Positions 17,377-24,094 of a DNA stretch of 64,000 nt are shown one piece after another. The stretch comes from Desulfatibacillum sp. Its GTDB lineage: Bacteria; Desulfobacterota; Desulfobacteria; Desulfobacterales; SpSt-501. A program made the translations under genes and the position numbers. The notes beneath the pieces are model-generated. The model was not told where the DNA came from, searched no databases, and was given only the letters and a program-made list of their open reading frames with translations. The first letter of the stretch is position 1. Every line of letters starts with the position of its first letter. The stretch covers positions 1 through 64,000 of the forward strand of contig DYEU01000032.1 of the NCBI GenBank assembly GCA_020725555.1, in the 5' to 3' direction.

Positions 17377-17433
17377 AAAGCCTCCACCGCTCCGGGACGA
17401 CGCCCTCGTGTAAGGGGAGTGGGTGGAGGCTTT
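17377..17433. promoter_or_regulatory. 12-bp perfect inverted repeat between pyrE and the tolC operon
   Basis: AAAGCCTCCACC (17377-17388) is repeated in inverse at 17422-17433 with 33 bases between. It covers the predicted start of the rightward operon and lies upstream of pyrE on the other strand. Read toward pyrE the second arm ends in CTTTTCT, so it could be an attenuator for pyrE; as DNA it could be a two-site operator. The sequence alone does not decide. Confidence 0.5.
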
Positions 17434-17532
17434 GAGCAAGAAAAACCGCGTTCGGCCCTCCTTGAACTCGCCCGTCTCCTTACCAGGTCCGGGCCCCGGG
17501 GTCAACGCCCGCAGGTACCGGAGAGGCGCACC

Positions 17533-18879
17533 ATGACCCGCTTCCTCACCGCCGCGGCCCTGGGCGCGGCGCTGCTGGCGGCCGTCGCGGCCGGCCGGCC
17601 CGCGGCGGCGGGCCCGGCGCAGCCGGCGCAGGCCCCGCTCACCCTCCGGGAGGCCGTCGAGACCGCCCTGCGCGCCAACCTCGCCGTCCAGCGCTCCGCC
17701 GAGGAGATCCTCGCCGCCGAGGCGCAGCGCCGCGTGAGCCTTTCGCGTTTTCTCCCCTCCCTCGGGACGAGCTACAGCGCCGTCCACCGCAACCGCGAAC
17801 GGACCTCCGTGAGCCCGCTCACCGGCCGGGAGGTGGTGAGCCTCCCCGAGAACCAGTACACCTGGACCACGAGCGTCACCCAGCCCGTCTTCACCGGCTT
17901 CGGGCTGATCCAGGAATACCGCCTCGCGGAGCTCGGCCTCGACCGGGCCGAGGTCGCCCTCAAGCTGGCGCGGCAGGACGTCGTCCTGGACGCCCAGAAC
18001 GCCTTTTTCCTGGTCCTCAAGACCCAGAAGCTGGTCGAGGTCGCGCGGCAGACCGTCGCCTCCATCTCGGCCCAGCGCAACGTCGCCGAGGACTTTTACC
18101 GCGTGGGGCTCACCCCGCTCAACGACCTGCTGCAAAGCGAGGTCCAGCTCGCCAACGCCCGGCAGCAGCTCACCAGCGCCTTGAACGACCTGGACATCGC
18201 GCGCGCCCGCTTCAACACGCTGCTGCGCCGGCCGGTCGGCACCCCCGTCGCGCTCGTCGAGGAGGTGGAATTCGCGCGGCTCGACTGGACGCTGGACACC
18301 TGCCTGGCGGAGGCGGCCGCAAACCGGCTCGAGCTGGAGATCGCCGGCCTGGACATCGCCATCGCCGAGCGCCAGGTGAAGCTCACCGAGAAGGACTTCT
18401 TTCCCGCGATCAACCTCACCGGCGCCTACATCCGCACGGGCGAGGAGTGGGACGTGGACGGCGGCGAGGGGATCTCCGATGCGGCGGGCTGGAACGTCCA
18501 GGCCACGGCCACCTGGGAATTCTGGCAGTGGGGCCGCACGGCCTACGGGCGGCGCGAAAAGCTCGCCCGGCTCGCCCAGTCGCGCCTGCGGAAAACCGAG
18601 ATCGAGGATTCCATCCGCCTCGAGGTGCAGCAGGCGTACCTCAAGGCGCGCGAGGCCGAGCAGAACATCGCCACGGTCGAGCGGGCGGTCGAGCAGGCGA
18701 AGGAAAATCTGCGCATCACCGAGGAGCAGTACCGCGAGCAGGTCGCCACCCAGACCGACGTCCTCGTCGCCCAGACGCTCCTCACGCAGACCGAGACGAA
18801 TTACACGAACGCGCTCTACGACTTCAAGATCGCCAAGGCCTTTCTCCTGCGGGCCATGGGCCGCAACCCCTTCGAGTGA
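17533..18879 (+). CDS. TolC-family outer membrane efflux protein
   Basis: Forms a trimeric outer-membrane channel. The 448 residues start with a signal peptide (about 1-26, ending AAAGPA) and show the two repeated OEP halves: LTLREAVETALRANLAVQ at the start of the first, long heptad-like helices (AQRRVSLSRFLPSLG), and a second half with AAANRLELEIAGLDIAIAERQ and ATWEFWQWGRTAYGRREK. The start is ATG 17533 with GGAGAGG seven bases upstream. It is first in an operon with ftsE and ftsX/envC, whose ATG overlaps its stop as TGATG. No membrane-fusion protein or pump is nearby, so its partner may be encoded elsewhere, or it may serve the division genes; the latter is speculation. Confidence 0.92.
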   Translation: MTRFLTAAALGAALLAAVAAGRPAAAGPAQPAQAPLTLREAVETALRANLAVQRSAEEILAAEAQRRVSLSRFLPSLGTSYSAVHRNRERTSVSPLTGREVVSLPENQYTWTTSVTQPVFTGFGLIQEYRLAELGLDRAEVALKLARQDVVLDAQNAFFLVLKTQKLVEVARQTVASISAQRNVAEDFYRVGLTPLNDLLQSEVQLANARQQLTSALNDLDIARARFNTLLRRPVGTPVALVEEVEFARLDWTLDTCLAEAAANRLELEIAGLDIAIAERQVKLTEKDFFPAINLTGAYIRTGEEWDVDGGEGISDAAGWNVQATATWEFWQWGRTAYGRREKLARLAQSRLRKTEIEDSIRLEVQQAYLKAREAEQNIATVERAVEQAKENLRITEEQYREQVATQTDVLVAQTLLTQTETNYTNALYDFKIAKAFLLRAMGRNPFE

Positions 18880-19565
18880 TGCAGCCGCGGGCGGAGCCTC
18901 CCCTCATCCGCCTCCGGGGCGTGCGGGTCTCCTACGGGAGCCGCCCGGTCCTCGAGGGCCTCGAGCTCGAGGTCGGCAAAAACGAGCGCCTGCTGGTCAC
19001 CGGCCCCAGCGGGGCGGGCAAAACCACGCTCATCCGGCTGCTCTGCGGCGCGCTGCGGGCCGAGCGCGGGGAGGTGGAAATCGACGGCGTGCGCCTCGAC
19101 GGCGCGCGGGAGGGGGACCTGCGGCGCCTGCGCCGCCGCCTGGGCATCGTCTTCCAGGACCCCCGGCTGATCGCGGGGTTCACGCTGCGGGAAAATCTCG
19201 CGCTCGCGCTCGAGGCCGCCGGGGAGCGCCCCGAGCGGATGGCGCCGAAGATCGAGCGCGTGCTGGCGCGGGTCGGCCTGGCCGGCCGCGGCGACGCCTA
19301 TCCGCCCGCCCTCTCCGGCGGCGAGCAGCAGCGCGCCGCCCTCGCCCGCGCCCTCGTGCGCGATCCCCGGGTTCTCCTCGCCGACGAGCCGACCGGCAAC
19401 CTCGATGCCGCGGCCGCGGCGGCCGTGACGGCGCTCCTCGAAGACGCCTGGATCCGGGGCGCCACGCTCGTGATCGCCACCCACGACCCGGCGCTCGCCG
19501 CCCGGCTGGGCGGCCGCCTCGTGCGCCTGGAACGCGGCGCGTTCGTTGCCCCGGGCCGCTCATGA
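18879..19565 (+). CDS. ftsE: FtsE-like cell-division ABC ATPase
   Basis: Cytoplasmic ATPase of the FtsEX complex, which drives septal peptidoglycan hydrolysis through EnvC-like activators. The 228 residues show Walker A GPSGAGKTT, Q loop VFQDPRLI, signature LSGGEQQR, Walker B VLLADEPTGNLD and switch His in IATHD. The order RRRLGIVFQDPRLIAGFTLRENLALALE is the FtsE/LolD type. The start overlaps the TolC-like stop (TGATG) and its stop overlaps the next ATG (ATGA), so the three are translationally coupled. FtsX follows directly, which settles FtsE over LolD. Confidence 0.93.
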   Translation: MQPRAEPPLIRLRGVRVSYGSRPVLEGLELEVGKNERLLVTGPSGAGKTTLIRLLCGALRAERGEVEIDGVRLDGAREGDLRRLRRRLGIVFQDPRLIAGFTLRENLALALEAAGERPERMAPKIERVLARVGLAGRGDAYPPALSGGEQQRAALARALVRDPRVLLADEPTGNLDAAAAAAVTALLEDAWIRGATLVIATHDPALAARLGGRLVRLERGAFVAPGRS

Positions 19566-21613
19566 TCCCCCGCCCGCTCCGGCGCCTGGCCGCCGACCTG
19601 CGCGCCCACCGGCTGCTGCACGCCGTGACCGTGCTCACGGTGGCCCTCTCCACGCTGGTCGTCGGCGGCACACTCCTCGCCGGGGTCAACGCCGCCGAGG
19701 CGCTCGCCGCCTGGCGCCGGGAGACGCGGATCCTGGTTCACCTCCGGCCCCTGGCGGCCCCGGAACGGGAGGAGCTCGAGCGGCGGCTCCGGGCCGCGGA
19801 AGGGGTTGCCGCGGTGCGGTTCCTGCCCCGCGAAGAGGCCTTCGCCGAGCTGCGCCGCCACTTCCCGAACCTCGAGCTGCTCTTCGAGCCGTTCGAAGAC
19901 CCCCCCCTGCCCGACGCCTTCGAGGTGGAGCCGCGGGAGCCCGCCCTCGCCGCCGTCGAGCGGCTCGCCCGGGCCCTGCGCGCGCTGCCCGAGGTCGAGG
20001 AGGTCGCCTACCCCCGGCGCGCGCTCGAAGGCCTGCAGGCGTTTCTGGATTTCCTGCGGCGCGGCGGGCTTCTGCTCCTCGGGCTTGCGATCCTCGCCGC
20101 GGTCGCCATGGTGGCGGCGACGACACGGCTCGTGCTCCACGCCCGGCGCGAGGAAATCGAGCTCCTGCGCCTGTTCGGCGCGGGGTGGGGGCTGCTCCAC
20201 GGCCGCTTTCTCCTCGGGGGGCTGCTCCACGGGGCGGCCGGCGGGGGCCTCGGCCTCGGGCTGCTGCGGGGGCTCTTCGACGCCCTCCTGCCGGCCGCCG
20301 CGCCCTTGGCCCACGCCGCCGGCCTTGCGCCGCGGTTTCTCAGCGCCGCCGAGGCCGCGGGCCTCGTGGCCGGCGCCGCCGCCGCCGGGGCGATCGGGGC
20401 GCTCGCCCCGCTGGGCCGGGGGCTCCGGGGCGTTCCGGGCTGGCTGTTCGCCCTTGCCGCAGGCCTCCTCCTCGCCGGGGCCGTGCGCGCGGCGGCTGCG
20501 GAACCGGCCGGAGACGCCGCGGCCGTCGATCCCCTGCAGCAGGAGGCCGAGGCCCTGCGGCGCGGGCAGCGGGAAATGGAAGCCGATCTCGAGCGGCTGC
20601 GGCGCCGCGAAACCGACGTCGCGGCGGCGCTGGATCAGGCGGCGCGGCGGCTCGCCGAGAGCCGCCGCCGCGCCGCCGCCGCCCGCGCCGAGCACGAGGC
20701 GCTCGCCCACCGCGTGCGGCTGCTGCAGGAGGCCCGCAGCGACCTCGAGGGGCGGCTTGCGGAGCTCAAGCGGGCGCTCGCCAAGCGCCTGCGGGCCCTC
20801 TACGGGGTGCACCGGCTGGGACCGGCCGCCTCCGGCGGCGCGCTCGCCGCCTCCCCGGTCGAGCGCCAACGCGCCGAGGCCGGCCTCGAGCGGCTGCTCG
20901 CGCACGACGCCCGGCTGCTTTCCGCCCTGGCCGAAGACGCCGCCGAGCTCGCCGGCCTGCAGGCCGGCATCGAGGCGGACAGCGCGCGCCTCGCGGAGCG
21001 GCTGGCGCGGCTTGAGGAGGAGCTCCGCGCGCTTTCGCTGGCCGCCGCGGAGCGCGAACGGCTGCTTGCGCGGATCCGGCTCGACCGCGACGCCCGCCGC
21101 ACGGCCGCGGCGCGGCTCGAGGAGGCCGGACGGCGGCTCGAGGAACAGATGCGCAGCCTGATTGAGCGGCCGGCCCCGGACGCCGCCACTGCCCCCCCCG
21201 CGCCGCCGATGGCCGCGGCAAAAGGCTTGCTTCTCTTTCCGCTTCAGGGTAGCATGAATGCTGCACGCCTCCTGCAACGGAACCCGGGGCCGGCCGCCGC
21301 CGGGTTCCGCAAGGGGATCGAAATCGCCGCCGAACGCGGCGAGCCGGTCCGGGCCGTGCACGGCGGGACCGTACTCTTCGCCGACTGGTTCGGCGGCTAC
21401 GGCAACATGATCGTCATCGACCACGGAGACCACGTTTACTCCCTCTACGCCCACCTCGAAGACCTCTTCACTGCGCCGGATCGACGCGTCGCCCCCGGCG
21501 ACGTCATCGCCACCGTCGGCGACTCGGGCCCCCTGGGGGTGAGCAGCCTCTACTTCGAGCTGCGGCATCGCGAGCGGAGCCTCGACCCGCTGGAGTGGTT
21601 CCCCCCGCAGTGA
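19562..21613 (+). CDS. ftsX: FtsX-EnvC fusion: division permease joined to a LytM-fold amidase activator
   Basis: One uninterrupted frame of 683 residues. Residues 1 to about 290 are FtsX: a membrane helix (about 18-42), an extracytoplasmic domain with RILVHLRPLAAPEREELE and the FEPFEDPPLPDAFEV motif, then three more helices (about 163-187, 215-238, 263-287). A fifth hydrophobic segment (about 293-312) carries the chain back across the membrane; no ATG, GTG or TTG in frame lies just before it, so it is not an independent signal peptide. A long Arg/Ala/Glu coiled coil (about 320-540) and a LytM domain (about 580-680) follow. The LytM zinc ligands are lost: RKGIEI replaces H.G.D and SLYFE replaces HLHFE, as in EnvC. 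It should therefore activate amidases, not cut peptidoglycan itself. Confidence 0.9.
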   Translation: MIPRPLRRLAADLRAHRLLHAVTVLTVALSTLVVGGTLLAGVNAAEALAAWRRETRILVHLRPLAAPEREELERRLRAAEGVAAVRFLPREEAFAELRRHFPNLELLFEPFEDPPLPDAFEVEPREPALAAVERLARALRALPEVEEVAYPRRALEGLQAFLDFLRRGGLLLLGLAILAAVAMVAATTRLVLHARREEIELLRLFGAGWGLLHGRFLLGGLLHGAAGGGLGLGLLRGLFDALLPAAAPLAHAAGLAPRFLSAAEAAGLVAGAAAAGAIGALAPLGRGLRGVPGWLFALAAGLLLAGAVRAAAAEPAGDAAAVDPLQQEAEALRRGQREMEADLERLRRRETDVAAALDQAARRLAESRRRAAAARAEHEALAHRVRLLQEARSDLEGRLAELKRALAKRLRALYGVHRLGPAASGGALAASPVERQRAEAGLERLLAHDARLLSALAEDAAELAGLQAGIEADSARLAERLARLEEELRALSLAAAERERLLARIRLDRDARRTAAARLEEAGRRLEEQMRSLIERPAPDAATAPPAPPMAAAKGLLLFPLQGSMNAARLLQRNPGPAAAGFRKGIEIAAERGEPVRAVHGGTVLFADWFGGYGNMIVIDHGDHVYSLYAHLEDLFTAPDRRVAPGDVIATVGDSGPLGVSSLYFELRHRERSLDPLEWFPPQ

Positions 21614-21661: not shown

Positions 21662-23029
21662 ATGAAACCGAGGATCCATCGTCCCGTCCGCCTGTGGGTC
21701 GTCATGCTGATCGCGCTGGCGGCGTGGATGCTGAGCGCGGGATTCCAGCGCGCCGATTCGGCCGGCAAGGAACAGCTCTACGAGCAGCTCAAGATCTTCT
21801 CCGACGTGCTCGAGCTGATCCAGCGGGACTATGTGGAGGAGGTCGATCCCAAGGACCTCATCCAGAAGGCCATCCAGGGCATGCTCCAGGGGTTGGACCC
21901 CCACTCCTCGCTGCTCCCGCCCGATGCCTACGAGGACCTCCAGATCGACACCAAGGGCAAGTTCACGGGCATCGGCATCCACATCACGATGCAGAACGGC
22001 TTCGTCACCGTCATCTCGCCGATCGAGGACACCCCCGCCCACCGCGCCGGGATCGAGCCGGGCGACCGCATCATCAAGGTGGACGGCCAGCTCACCAAGG
22101 ACCTGCGCGAAGCCGTGCGCATGATGCGCGGGCCCAAGGGCTCCAAGGTCACGGTGACCATCCTGCGCGAAGGGGTGAAAAAGCCGATCGATTTCGAGCT
22201 CACCCGCGACGAGATCCCCATCCAGAGCGTCAAGCACGTGCTGCTCCGCCCCGGCTTCGGCTACGTGCGCATTTCCAACTTCACCGGAACGACGACCCAG
22301 GACTTCGAAAAGGCGCTCGAGCAGCTCGAATCCTCCGACCCCCCGCTCAAGGGGCTGATCCTCGACCTGCGCAACAACGGCGGGGGCCTGCTCAACCAGG
22401 CGATCAGCATCGCCGACGAGTTCCTCGAGCAGGGCACGATCGTCTCCATGAAGGGCCGCGACAAGCGGAACACCAAGGTCTTCAGCGCCACCGCCTCGCG
22501 CACCCCCCGCACCTACCCGATCGTGGTCCTGATCAACGGCGGCACGGCCAGCGCCTCCGAGATCGTGGCCGGCGCCCTGCAGGACCAGAAGCGCGCGCTG
22601 ATCCTCGGGACGACCTCCTTCGGCAAGGGCTCGGTGCAGACCGTCGAGACGCTGCGCGACGGCTCCGGCGTCAAGCTGACCATCGCCCGCTACTACACCC
22701 CGAGCGGCCGCTCGATCCAGGCGAAGGGCATCGAGCCCGACATCGTCCTCAAGTTCAAGCGCCTGGACGAATCCGAAACGGCCGCCGCCGAGGACGGCAC
22801 CCTCAAGGAGAAGGACCTCGAAAACCACCTCGAGGATGAGGGCCCCTCGCGCAAGCCCCGCCCCGCCCGGCCGCCGGCCAAGCCCGAGGAGGACGCCAAG
22901 AAGCGCCTGAAGGAAGCCGAGTCGCGGGTCGGGCCGCTGCAGGTGGAGACGCTGCAGAACGACAACCAGGTGATGCGGGCGCTGGAGATCCTGATCGGCC
23001 ACGACGTGCTGCGCCAGGCCCGGCGCTGA
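21662..23029 (+). CDS. ctpA: C-terminal processing protease (S41A, CtpA/Prc-like)
   Basis: Periplasmic serine protease with a Ser-Lys dyad that trims or degrades envelope proteins. The 455 residues begin with a signal or anchor helix (about 11-30), then a helical region (LIQRDYVEEVDPKDLI, GMLQGLDPHSS), a PDZ domain (about 95-180, GIGIHIT to FELTRDEI) and the protease core: VRISNFTGTT, LDLRNNGGGLL, catalytic S297 in GGTASASEIV and K322 in GTTSFGKGSVQT. A Lys/Glu-rich region precedes a helical C-terminus. It lies 48 bases after ftsX/envC. In other bacteria Ctp proteases regulate peptidoglycan hydrolases, so co-transcription with an EnvC-like activator is meaningful. Confidence 0.94.
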   Translation: MKPRIHRPVRLWVVMLIALAAWMLSAGFQRADSAGKEQLYEQLKIFSDVLELIQRDYVEEVDPKDLIQKAIQGMLQGLDPHSSLLPPDAYEDLQIDTKGKFTGIGIHITMQNGFVTVISPIEDTPAHRAGIEPGDRIIKVDGQLTKDLREAVRMMRGPKGSKVTVTILREGVKKPIDFELTRDEIPIQSVKHVLLRPGFGYVRISNFTGTTTQDFEKALEQLESSDPPLKGLILDLRNNGGGLLNQAISIADEFLEQGTIVSMKGRDKRNTKVFSATASRTPRTYPIVVLINGGTASASEIVAGALQDQKRALILGTTSFGKGSVQTVETLRDGSGVKLTIARYYTPSGRSIQAKGIEPDIVLKFKRLDESETAAAEDGTLKEKDLENHLEDEGPSRKPRPARPPAKPEEDAKKRLKEAESRVGPLQVETLQNDNQVMRALEILIGHDVLRQARR

Positions 23030-23038
23030 ACCGCGGCC

Positions 23039-24094
23039 ATGGCCCCGACGCCTTCCTCCCCGCGCCGGCGGCCGCGGCGGCCCGGGCCGCGCCGCCGGGC
23101 CAAGGCCCCCGCCTGGCCCCGCCGGCTGGCCTGGTTCGGGGTCTTTCTGCTCACGACCGCGGCGCTGCTCTGGGGCCTGCACCGGCTGGGGTACCGGCCC
23201 GAGGCGCCGCCCGCCGCAAGGACGGACCGGAGCACCGCGAAGCCCGCCCCGCCGCGGGCCGCCGCCCCGCCCGCCGCCCCGCGGCCGGCGGAGGCCCCCC
23301 CCGGCCGCACGCCTCCCCCTTCCGCCCCGGCTCCCGCCCCCGCGCCCTCGCCGGGAGCGGCGCCCGCCGAGCTCCACGCCGCCCTGCCGCCCGGGCCGCC
23401 TCCGGGGCCCCCCGTTCCCCGCGCCCGGCCGCGCGTCGCCCTCATCATCGACGACATCGGCTACGACCGGTCGCTCGCCGAAAAGCTGATCGCGCTCGAC
23501 GCCCCGCTCACCTTCGCCGTGCTCCCCCACAGCCCGCACCGCAAGGCGCTCGCGCGGCTGGCCGACGAGCGGGGCCGCGAGGTCCTGCTGCACCTGCCCA
23601 TGGAGCCGCGCGAGTACCCCGCGGTCGACCCGGGGCCGGGCGCGCTGCTCGCCGCGATGACGCCCGATGAGCTGCTGCAGGAGCTCGAGCGGGACCTTCA
23701 GGCCGTGCCCTTCGCCCGCGGGGTGAACAACCACATGGGCTCGCGCCTCACGGCCGACGCCGACCGGATGAACCAGGTCTTCTCCGTCCTCAAGCGGCGC
23801 GGGCTCTTCTTCGTCGACAGCCGCACGAGCGAGGAGAGCGCCTGCCGCTCCGCGGCGCGCCTCTTTCAGGTCCCCTTCGCCCAGCGCGACGTCTTCCTCG
23901 ACCACCGCCCCGAGCCCGAGTTCATCCGCCGGCAGCTCTCCGCGCTCGTGCGGCTCGCCCGCAGCCGGGGCGAGGCGATCGGCATCGCCCACCCGCACCC
24001 GGCGACCTACGCCGTGCTGCGCGAGGAGATGCCGCGGCTCAAGGAAGAGCTCGAGTTCGTGCCCGCCTCGCGGCTCGCGCGGCTCATCGAGTAA
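23039..24094 (+). CDS. YibQ-like divergent polysaccharide deacetylase-fold protein
   Basis: Protein of 351 residues with a basic N-terminus, one membrane helix (about 29-50), a long Pro/Ala linker (about 55-130) and a domain of the divergent polysaccharide deacetylase family. Motifs are VALIIDDIGYD, PLTFAVLPHSPH, EVLLHLPMEP, GVNNHMGSRLT, FFVDSRT and AIGIAHPHPAT. In enterobacteria yibQ is next to envC, and here it is in the operon of the FtsX-EnvC fusion, which supports a conserved role in septal wall processing. It starts nine bases after the protease stop with no clear ribosome site, so coupling is likely. Its 3' end overlaps the convergent FHA gene by 11 bases. Activity on a substrate is not proven for the family. 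Confidence 0.88.
   Translation: MAPTPSSPRRRPRRPGPRRRAKAPAWPRRLAWFGVFLLTTAALLWGLHRLGYRPEAPPAARTDRSTAKPAPPRAAAPPAAPRPAEAPPGRTPPPSAPAPAPAPSPGAAPAELHAALPPGPPPGPPVPRARPRVALIIDDIGYDRSLAEKLIALDAPLTFAVLPHSPHRKALARLADERGREVLLHLPMEPREYPAVDPGPGALLAAMTPDELLQELERDLQAVPFARGVNNHMGSRLTADADRMNQVFSVLKRRGLFFVDSRTSEESACRSAARLFQVPFAQRDVFLDHRPEPEFIRRQLSALVRLARSRGEAIGIAHPHPATYAVLREEMPRLKEELEFVPASRLARLIE

Follow-up and report, generated by a model that had tools for sequence, protein, structure and literature searches.

Fused ftsX-envC genes in two species of one Desulfobacterales genus: a putative polyprotein of the cell division machinery

The genome of Desulfatibacillum sp. (Desulfobacteria; Desulfobacterales; SpSt-501) encodes the division permease FtsX and the amidase activator EnvC in a single gene. 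This fused ftsX-envC gene occupies 19562..21613 on the forward strand of the window, the whole stretch of 64,000 nucleotides analyzed here (NCBI GenBank assembly GCA_020725555.1, contig DYEU01000032.1, positions 1 to 64,000), and the same fusion is present in a second species of the genus. We hold it nearly certain that the fused gene is real and very probable that it is translated as one chain. On the evidence of the sequence, we lean toward an EnvC half that is exported by an internal signal and then cut free. Taken whole, our best explanation (an ancestral fusion, one chain, a cut EnvC, and amidase activation of the FtsEX type) could equally hold or fail. Below, G000 denotes the source genome of the window, other G numbers the compared genomes, and L numbers the loci examined.

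RESULTS

One open frame spans FtsX and EnvC

Translation of 19562-21613 (+) gives 683 residues (683 codons) without an internal stop. The FtsX part, residues 1 to 288 (19562..20425, +), comprises transmembrane segment 1 (TM1), a periplasmic domain, and TM2 to TM4, as delimited by the NCBIfam model FtsX_Gneg and by the second of two AlphaFold2 (AF2) models. FtsX_Gneg matches over positions 7 to 291 of its 292 on residues 8 to 288 with 160.7 bits, below the equivalog cutoff of 255, and the NCBIfam EnvC model matches residues 448 to 680 with 90.1 bits, below its cutoff of 270; because both scores fall below the curated cutoffs, an automatic pipeline may leave the protein unnamed. Pfam places FtsX_ECD on residues 66 to 148 (48.4 bits, above cutoff), the FtsX C-terminal domain on residues 171 to 283 (22.1 bits, below the cutoff of 25.5), and Peptidase_M23 on residues 582 to 676 (90 bits, above cutoff). 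In sequence comparisons with solved chains, the FtsX half matched 8i6o, 8ymc, and 8hd0 (E values of 1.8e-15 to 3.9e-13), and the EnvC half matched 8i6o, 8tzk, 6tpi, and 8hd0 (1.6e-22 to 1.2e-19). Long empty frames are common in this GC-rich DNA; the fused frame is more than chance, because homology runs along its whole length and the frame is also open in a second genome (L008/L037).

The N-terminal half has the full-length FtsX profile match, the periplasmic domain between TM1 and TM2, and the adjoining gene for an FtsE ATPase with intact motifs. The chain does not end after the fourth transmembrane helix but runs on in frame into another hydrophobic segment, the fifth, and then the EnvC half. 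Hydropathy peaks begin at residues 24, 168, 217, 238, 266, and 295 (19-residue windows); these are the usual FtsX segments and one extra. The X-lobe of the periplasmic domain was assigned by alignment position to residues 88 to 118 (19823..19915, +), with borders that we set ourselves.

The EnvC half consists of a coiled-coil hairpin and a following helix (residues 318 to 418 and 432 to 535; 20513..21166, +), identified in the first AF2 model and by matches to 6tpi_A and 8tzl_E in the Protein Data Bank, and of a C-terminal LytM (M23-fold) domain without zinc ligands (residues 560 to 683; 21239..21610, +), identified by Pfam and by matches to solved EnvC. By-eye alignment with Escherichia coli EnvC puts the docking tip at about residues 408 to 440. 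Active M23 enzymes carry the zinc motifs HxGxD and HxH. In their place the fused protein has RKGIEI (residues 583 to 588; 21308..21325, +) and SLYFE (residues 662 to 666; 21545..21559, +), and E. coli EnvC (6tpi) has WKGMVI and, letter for letter, SLYFE at the aligned sites; the domain thus lacks the signature of an active M23 endopeptidase. Six M23 matches were found in G000, and by eye the fused protein alone lacks the ligands, the other five retaining ligand-like motifs. Genome-wide, G000 has one FtsX_ECD match and one Amidase_3 match. Hairpin, helix, and zinc-less LytM domain are those of EnvC; EnvC is otherwise a separate gene with an N-terminal signal peptide, and here that peptide lies inside the fused frame. 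An earlier note, made from the letters of this DNA, had proposed one unbroken frame with FtsX followed by a fifth hydrophobic segment, a coiled coil, and a degenerate LytM domain with an EnvC-like loss of zinc ligands. Translation, Pfam, NCBIfam, hydropathy, the solved EnvC matches, and the 6tpi alignment agree with it on each of these points.

The fusion recurs in one other species

Genome G003, from the same genus, carries the same fusion on contig CALIUY010000046.1, over residues 1 to 683 and with no stop. The two fused proteins are identical at 465 of 676 aligned residues, and their genes differ by a dN of 0.23 and a dS of 0.58 (Nei-Gojobori method, NG86). Their junction linkers differ by 3, 3, and 1 residues, with the frame open in both; the codon alignment was built on translations, so that its gaps are whole codons by construction. 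Conservation is lowest at the junction among the regions compared, with 17 identities in 34 aligned residues.

The other five genus members (G001, G002, G004, G005, and G006) have separate, adjacent ftsX and envC genes at the same place, envC of G006 running off its contig. We read 61 loci, of which 4 are fused (L007, that of G000, and L008, L037, and L089, which are one G003 contig) and 57 are separate. The separate loci represent 52 distinct genomes, the five genus members included (5 of the 57 repeat a genome); each of these 52 was read singly, and in all of them the two genes are adjacent.

Across the class (389 genomes, 386 with a match), a stop-free match over both halves occurred only in G000 and G003 among the matches listed, about 150 rows ranked so that joined matches stand high; third in that ranking was G028, with two genes and one stop between them. 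In an EnvC-type search of the phylum (395 genomes, 376 with a match; G003 lies outside this sample), frames of >600 residues were found only in G000, G389, and G060 among the matches listed. G389 and G060 were rejected as fusions since each has two genes in different frames, and a stop between the two genes disqualified G028 and G006 as well as G012, G025, and G043, in which two matches share a long frame. Three further searches used FtsX_ECD and are blind to any FtsX that this model misses. In the phylum of a Sphingomonas genome (249 genomes, 132 with a match) the longest frame was 602 residues and not fused; in that of a Bacillota-titled genome (159 genomes, 146 with a match) it was 365 among the matches listed; and in that of the L038 genome (149 genomes, 143 with a match) it was 1183 among the matches listed, again not fused. 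The last, in G1303, is a GC-rich open frame with FtsX at its end and no EnvC downstream, and the long frames of G832 and G1219 were rejected on inspection. One of six frames of 540 to 580 residues in the Sphingomonas-phylum and L038-phylum searches was opened; the remaining five seem too short to hold both proteins. The fusion is therefore likely absent elsewhere, and our literature search, which covered an open-access library and not subscription journals or protein databases, turned up no description of a natural FtsX-EnvC fusion.

The junction contains a former signal peptide and a candidate cleavage site

In most relatives the C-terminal end of FtsX resembles VGWLGCYLSLKQFLK. The matching stretch in the fused proteins leads directly into a basic loop (GRGLRGVPG in G000, RRARVA in G003) and a hydrophobic segment. 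By alignment, the short basic loop that links TM4 to the fifth segment (the GRGLRGVP region, RRAR in G003) lies at 20414..20437 (+), and it is predicted to face the cytoplasm. The fifth hydrophobic segment, residues 294 to 308 (20441..20485, +), is the former EnvC signal peptide: in the alignment it falls on the EnvC signal peptides of the genus members with separate genes. Over 19 residues its hydropathy is 1.94 in G000 and 1.78 in G003, close to that of TM4 (1.74 and 2.3) and of those signal peptides (1.38 to 1.99).

A candidate signal peptidase site, A-A-A-E-P at residues 311 to 315 (20492..20506, +) with the bond between residues 313 and 314, follows the fifth segment. The pattern [AVSTIL]-x-[AGS]-[QE]-(x)-P is found after the hydrophobic core in all seven genus members, as AAAEP in G000, AAAQTP in G003, and VTGQP, VAGQP, VDAQSP, AAGQVP, and AFGQPP in the other five, at 1 to 9 residues past the core (7 in G000 and 3 in G003). 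Within the first 80 residues, 12 of the 52 separate EnvC proteins have it, the five of the genus included. Given the alignment with EnvC signal peptides and a motif that is genus-wide and kept in both fused proteins, the fifth segment may be cut. The earlier note had the fifth helix deliver the activator to the periplasm; a periplasmic fate is likely, and it is the lasting anchor that is doubtful, as the segment may be removed.

A chain left uncut could hardly take up the known docking pose

The first AF2 model had a predicted template modeling score (pTM) of 0.40 and a mean predicted local distance difference test score (pLDDT) of 77.3, and its FtsX half rested on two sequences. In the second, built on 86 rows (pTM 0.58, mean pLDDT 76.5), the FtsX half became confident (pLDDT of 77 to 98 by ten-residue blocks) and the EnvC half lost confidence. 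Residues 1 to 287 of the second model superimpose on Vibrio cholerae FtsX with a Z score of 18.4 and a root mean square deviation (rmsd) of 2.6 over 186 aligned residues. For residues 333 to 682 and V. cholerae EnvC the values are 11.6 and 16.2 over 283 aligned residues, an rmsd that indicates a different arrangement of coil and LytM domain. The EnvC helices span residues 339 to 419 and 432 to 531 in the second model. Residues 296 to 312 and most of 319 to 338 fall below a pLDDT of 50 there, and residues 292 to 311 form a helix with a pLDDT of about 50 to 60 in the first model; because of these low values, neither model gives the stability of a fifth-segment helix.

In published structural work, one EnvC binds two FtsX in E. 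coli and Pseudomonas aeruginosa (PMC7668044, PMC11139282, PMC11627006). In the crystal structure of EnvC with FtsX domains, contact is made through EnvC residues 114 to 128 and 141 to 160, the X-lobe is the EnvC-docking element in E. coli, and the heptads of EnvC helix I begin at residue 40 (PMC7668044). Cryo-electron microscopy gives a single EnvC per complex (PMC11139282), whose coil enters from above between two FtsX domains (PMC11627006), so that EnvC docks tip down with its N terminus far from the membrane (PMC7668044, PMC11627006). By the helices of the first model, some 90 to 100 helical residues separate the fifth segment of the fused protein from its docking tip; at 1.5 angstroms per residue this is roughly 140 angstroms. 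Because the docking site is at the opposite end of the coil, an N-terminal membrane anchor would prevent the published pose. On these models, the uncut chain could hardly adopt that pose, and a cut EnvC could.

FtsE, FtsX, and EnvC changed jointly in the fused lineage

The fused pair forms one clade with 100/100 support in the FtsE, FtsX, and EnvC trees (13 rows). The EnvC tree places it beside G004/G005 within the genus (88/86, or 83/81 with other outgroups), and the FtsE and FtsX trees leave its place unfixed because the midpoint root falls on the same long branch. The stem of the fused pair measures 1.31 changes per site in FtsE, 1.65 in FtsX, and 1.17 in EnvC; it exceeds the branch leading to six genomes from other families (0.52, 0.43, and 0.66, respectively). 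An unusual amino acid makeup, flagged by the tree tool for FtsX and EnvC of the fused pair, may make their branches longer; the FtsE tree drew no such flag. The same stem is 0.20 in the neighboring CtpA (21662-23029), against 0.50 for the genus (12 rows), and 0.20 in the amidase (6 rows). At 0.88 the polysaccharide deacetylase is intermediate; its tree includes a spurious G006 row of 54 residues and two further very long rows. Best-segment identities between G000 and G003 are 93% for CtpA, 93% for the amidase, and 86% for the upstream outer membrane protein, against 80% for FtsE, 71% for FtsX, 70% for the deacetylase, and 68% for EnvC. Faster change of FtsE, FtsX, and EnvC thus accompanied the fusion or came after it.

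Compared with the consensus of relatives, TM3 (z scores of -6.2 and -6.3 in the two fused proteins), the LytM domain (-6.1 and -6.4), and the X-lobe (-5.7 and -5.5) all depart strongly, and the first coil helix departs least (about -0.8). The FtsX periplasmic domain that bears the X-lobe is retained, and between the two fused species the X-lobe is constrained, with an omega of about 0.25. Decay of the docking interface was rejected as proof of lost docking, most parts departing from the consensus, TM3 and LytM equally far, and the X-lobe being constrained. The claim of the earlier note that fusion removes the docking step is not supported as it stands: the fifth segment may be cut, the X-lobe is retained, and an anchor at the N terminus of EnvC would prevent the docking pose rather than fix it.

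DISCUSSION

A polyprotein is favored over a permanent tether

We propose that adjacent ftsX and envC genes merged into one gene in the common ancestor of the two species. The single chain would insert by its FtsX part with four transmembrane segments, leaving the short basic loop in the cytoplasm, and the old EnvC signal peptide would serve as a fifth segment, taking the EnvC half to the periplasm. Signal peptidase I would most likely cut after the Ala-rich stretch, at residue 313 or nearby, yielding a five-segment FtsX and a free EnvC in equal amounts and at the same spot. The ATP cycle of FtsE-FtsX would then move the FtsX periplasmic domains, the EnvC coil would relay this movement to the LytM domain, and the LytM domain would activate the one Amidase_3 protein of the genome. 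One-chain translation, topology, cleavage, docking, and amidase activation are predictions throughout. We favor this polyprotein over a permanent tether because an uncut chain could scarcely attain the known pose and because the cleavage motif is kept; a free, cut EnvC could still bind two FtsX as in E. coli and P. aeruginosa. The motif and the alignment are what support the polyprotein, and cleavage is predicted from them.

Several observations weigh against it. Hydropathy cannot separate a signal peptide from a membrane anchor, and the junction has no confident structure in either AF2 model. The cleavage site pattern was chosen after the sequences had been viewed and was widened to E to admit G000, and shuffled Ala-rich stretches yield it in 10% and 13% of cases for the two fused proteins. 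The docking tip stands at z scores of -6.0 and -6.2 from the consensus of relatives and, with an omega of 0.59, is less constrained between the two fused species. Finally, cutting the chain back to two ordinary proteins leaves the acceleration of FtsE, FtsX, and EnvC unexplained.

These last points suit a less probable alternative, in which the fifth segment is an uncut anchor and each FtsX keeps an EnvC bound covalently, so that an FtsX dimer has two. The coil would rise from the membrane with its docking tip outward, and signaling would proceed without the E. coli docking pose. One open frame is kept in two species, the joint change of FtsE, FtsX, and EnvC is strong, as if the machine had been rebuilt, and the docking tip and X-lobe both depart from the consensus. 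Against such a tether, the departure is not limited to the interface, the X-lobe remains constrained, the cleavage site motif is kept, and, with a helix of about 100 residues starting some 10 residues past the anchor, the docking tip would be roughly 140 angstroms away. In its fullest form, a five-helix FtsX permanently bearing EnvC, two per dimer and with the coil turned over, with FtsE, FtsX, and EnvC rebuilt for covalent signaling to the LytM domain, the alternative is doubtful.

It is improbable that a separate EnvC is also started within the frame, which would make the fusion partial. The earlier note had seen no start codon near the junction that allows a separate EnvC; TTG 20306, GTG 20366, GTG 20483, and ATG 20576 are present in frame there, an in-frame ATG and GTG lie near the G003 junction, and by our start rule envC starts overlapping ftsX are frequent in relatives. 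The note was right insofar as none of these codons looks like the start of an exported EnvC: those at 20306 and 20366 would put TM4 ahead of the signal, those at 20483 and 20576 fall past the hydrophobic core, the candidates occupy different positions in the two species, and by eye no convincing ribosome-binding site lies near them. An artifact, whether a frameshift (the note had named an error near 20430) or a misassembly, is scarcely credible: the adjacent genes of relatives lie in different frames or are separated by a stop, so that a small error could join them, but a second species, 68% identical, carries the same fusion on its own contig.

Relation to known systems

The fused protein and its neighbors share with the FtsEX-EnvC systems of E. 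coli, P. aeruginosa, and V. cholerae (6tpi, 8i6o, 8tzl, and 8hd0) the three proteins and their domain order, the FtsE motifs, the X-lobe region, the coiled-coil hairpin, the zinc-less LytM domain, and an amidase in the genome. They differ in the single FtsX-EnvC frame, the fifth hydrophobic segment, an EnvC half that starts at the membrane, and markedly diverged sequences that score below the NCBIfam cutoffs. Another likeness is to FbcH of Bradyrhizobium, a cytochrome b/c1 polyprotein: an integral membrane protein and, after it in the same chain, a protein whose internal signal sequence is cut. The proteins are unrelated, and cleavage is experimental for FbcH and predicted for the fused FtsX-EnvC. 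In Gram-positive bacteria and mycobacteria, FtsEX likewise moves a coiled-coil partner outside the membrane, namely PcsB, CwlO, or RipC (PMC7668044), and there activates hydrolases directly (PMC10694151); in the fused protein, by contrast, the partner has a degenerate M23 domain and forms one chain with FtsX.

How FtsEX converts its ATP cycle into cutting of the wall is still being worked out, and the 2:1 asymmetry of FtsX to EnvC is central to the structural model. The natural fusion fixes FtsX:EnvC synthesis at 1:1. Without cleavage, the fused protein should be unable to take up the published pose; with cleavage, it is a polyprotein of bacterial cell division. It offers a ready-made natural construct for tests of stoichiometry and docking that ask whether FtsX and EnvC must be separate parts, and the shared acceleration of FtsE, FtsX, and EnvC points out the residues that were free to change.

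Neighboring genes

The ATPase partner gene ftsE (18879..19565, +) overlaps the start of the fused gene at its end (ATGA). Its product has the Walker A, signature, Walker B, and H-loop motifs and scores 218 bits with the NCBIfam FtsE model, below the cutoff of 264.85. Six of the seven genus members have an Amidase_3 match; the exception is G006 (80% complete), where none was found. Two scanned separate EnvC proteins from two other families of the order (L015:1492-2841 and L036:1492-3006) both have an N-terminal bacterial SH3 domain before the coil; scans found none in the G003 fused protein or in the genus mate L010.

Downstream of the fused gene (window 21662-24094) lie a CtpA-type S41 protease gene and then a divergent polysaccharide deacetylase gene. 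Among 12 other regions, 11 have ctpA after envC and 10 have the deacetylase there; the G006 region ends early, its deacetylase match overlapping envC, and G016 showed none. Upstream, a gene for a TolC-type outer membrane efflux protein (PF02321; window 17419-18879) ends in TGATG, overlapping the start of ftsE. A similar gene lies near ftsE in each of the seven genomes of the genus; of 6 outgroup regions, which vary in upstream reach, 2 have one.

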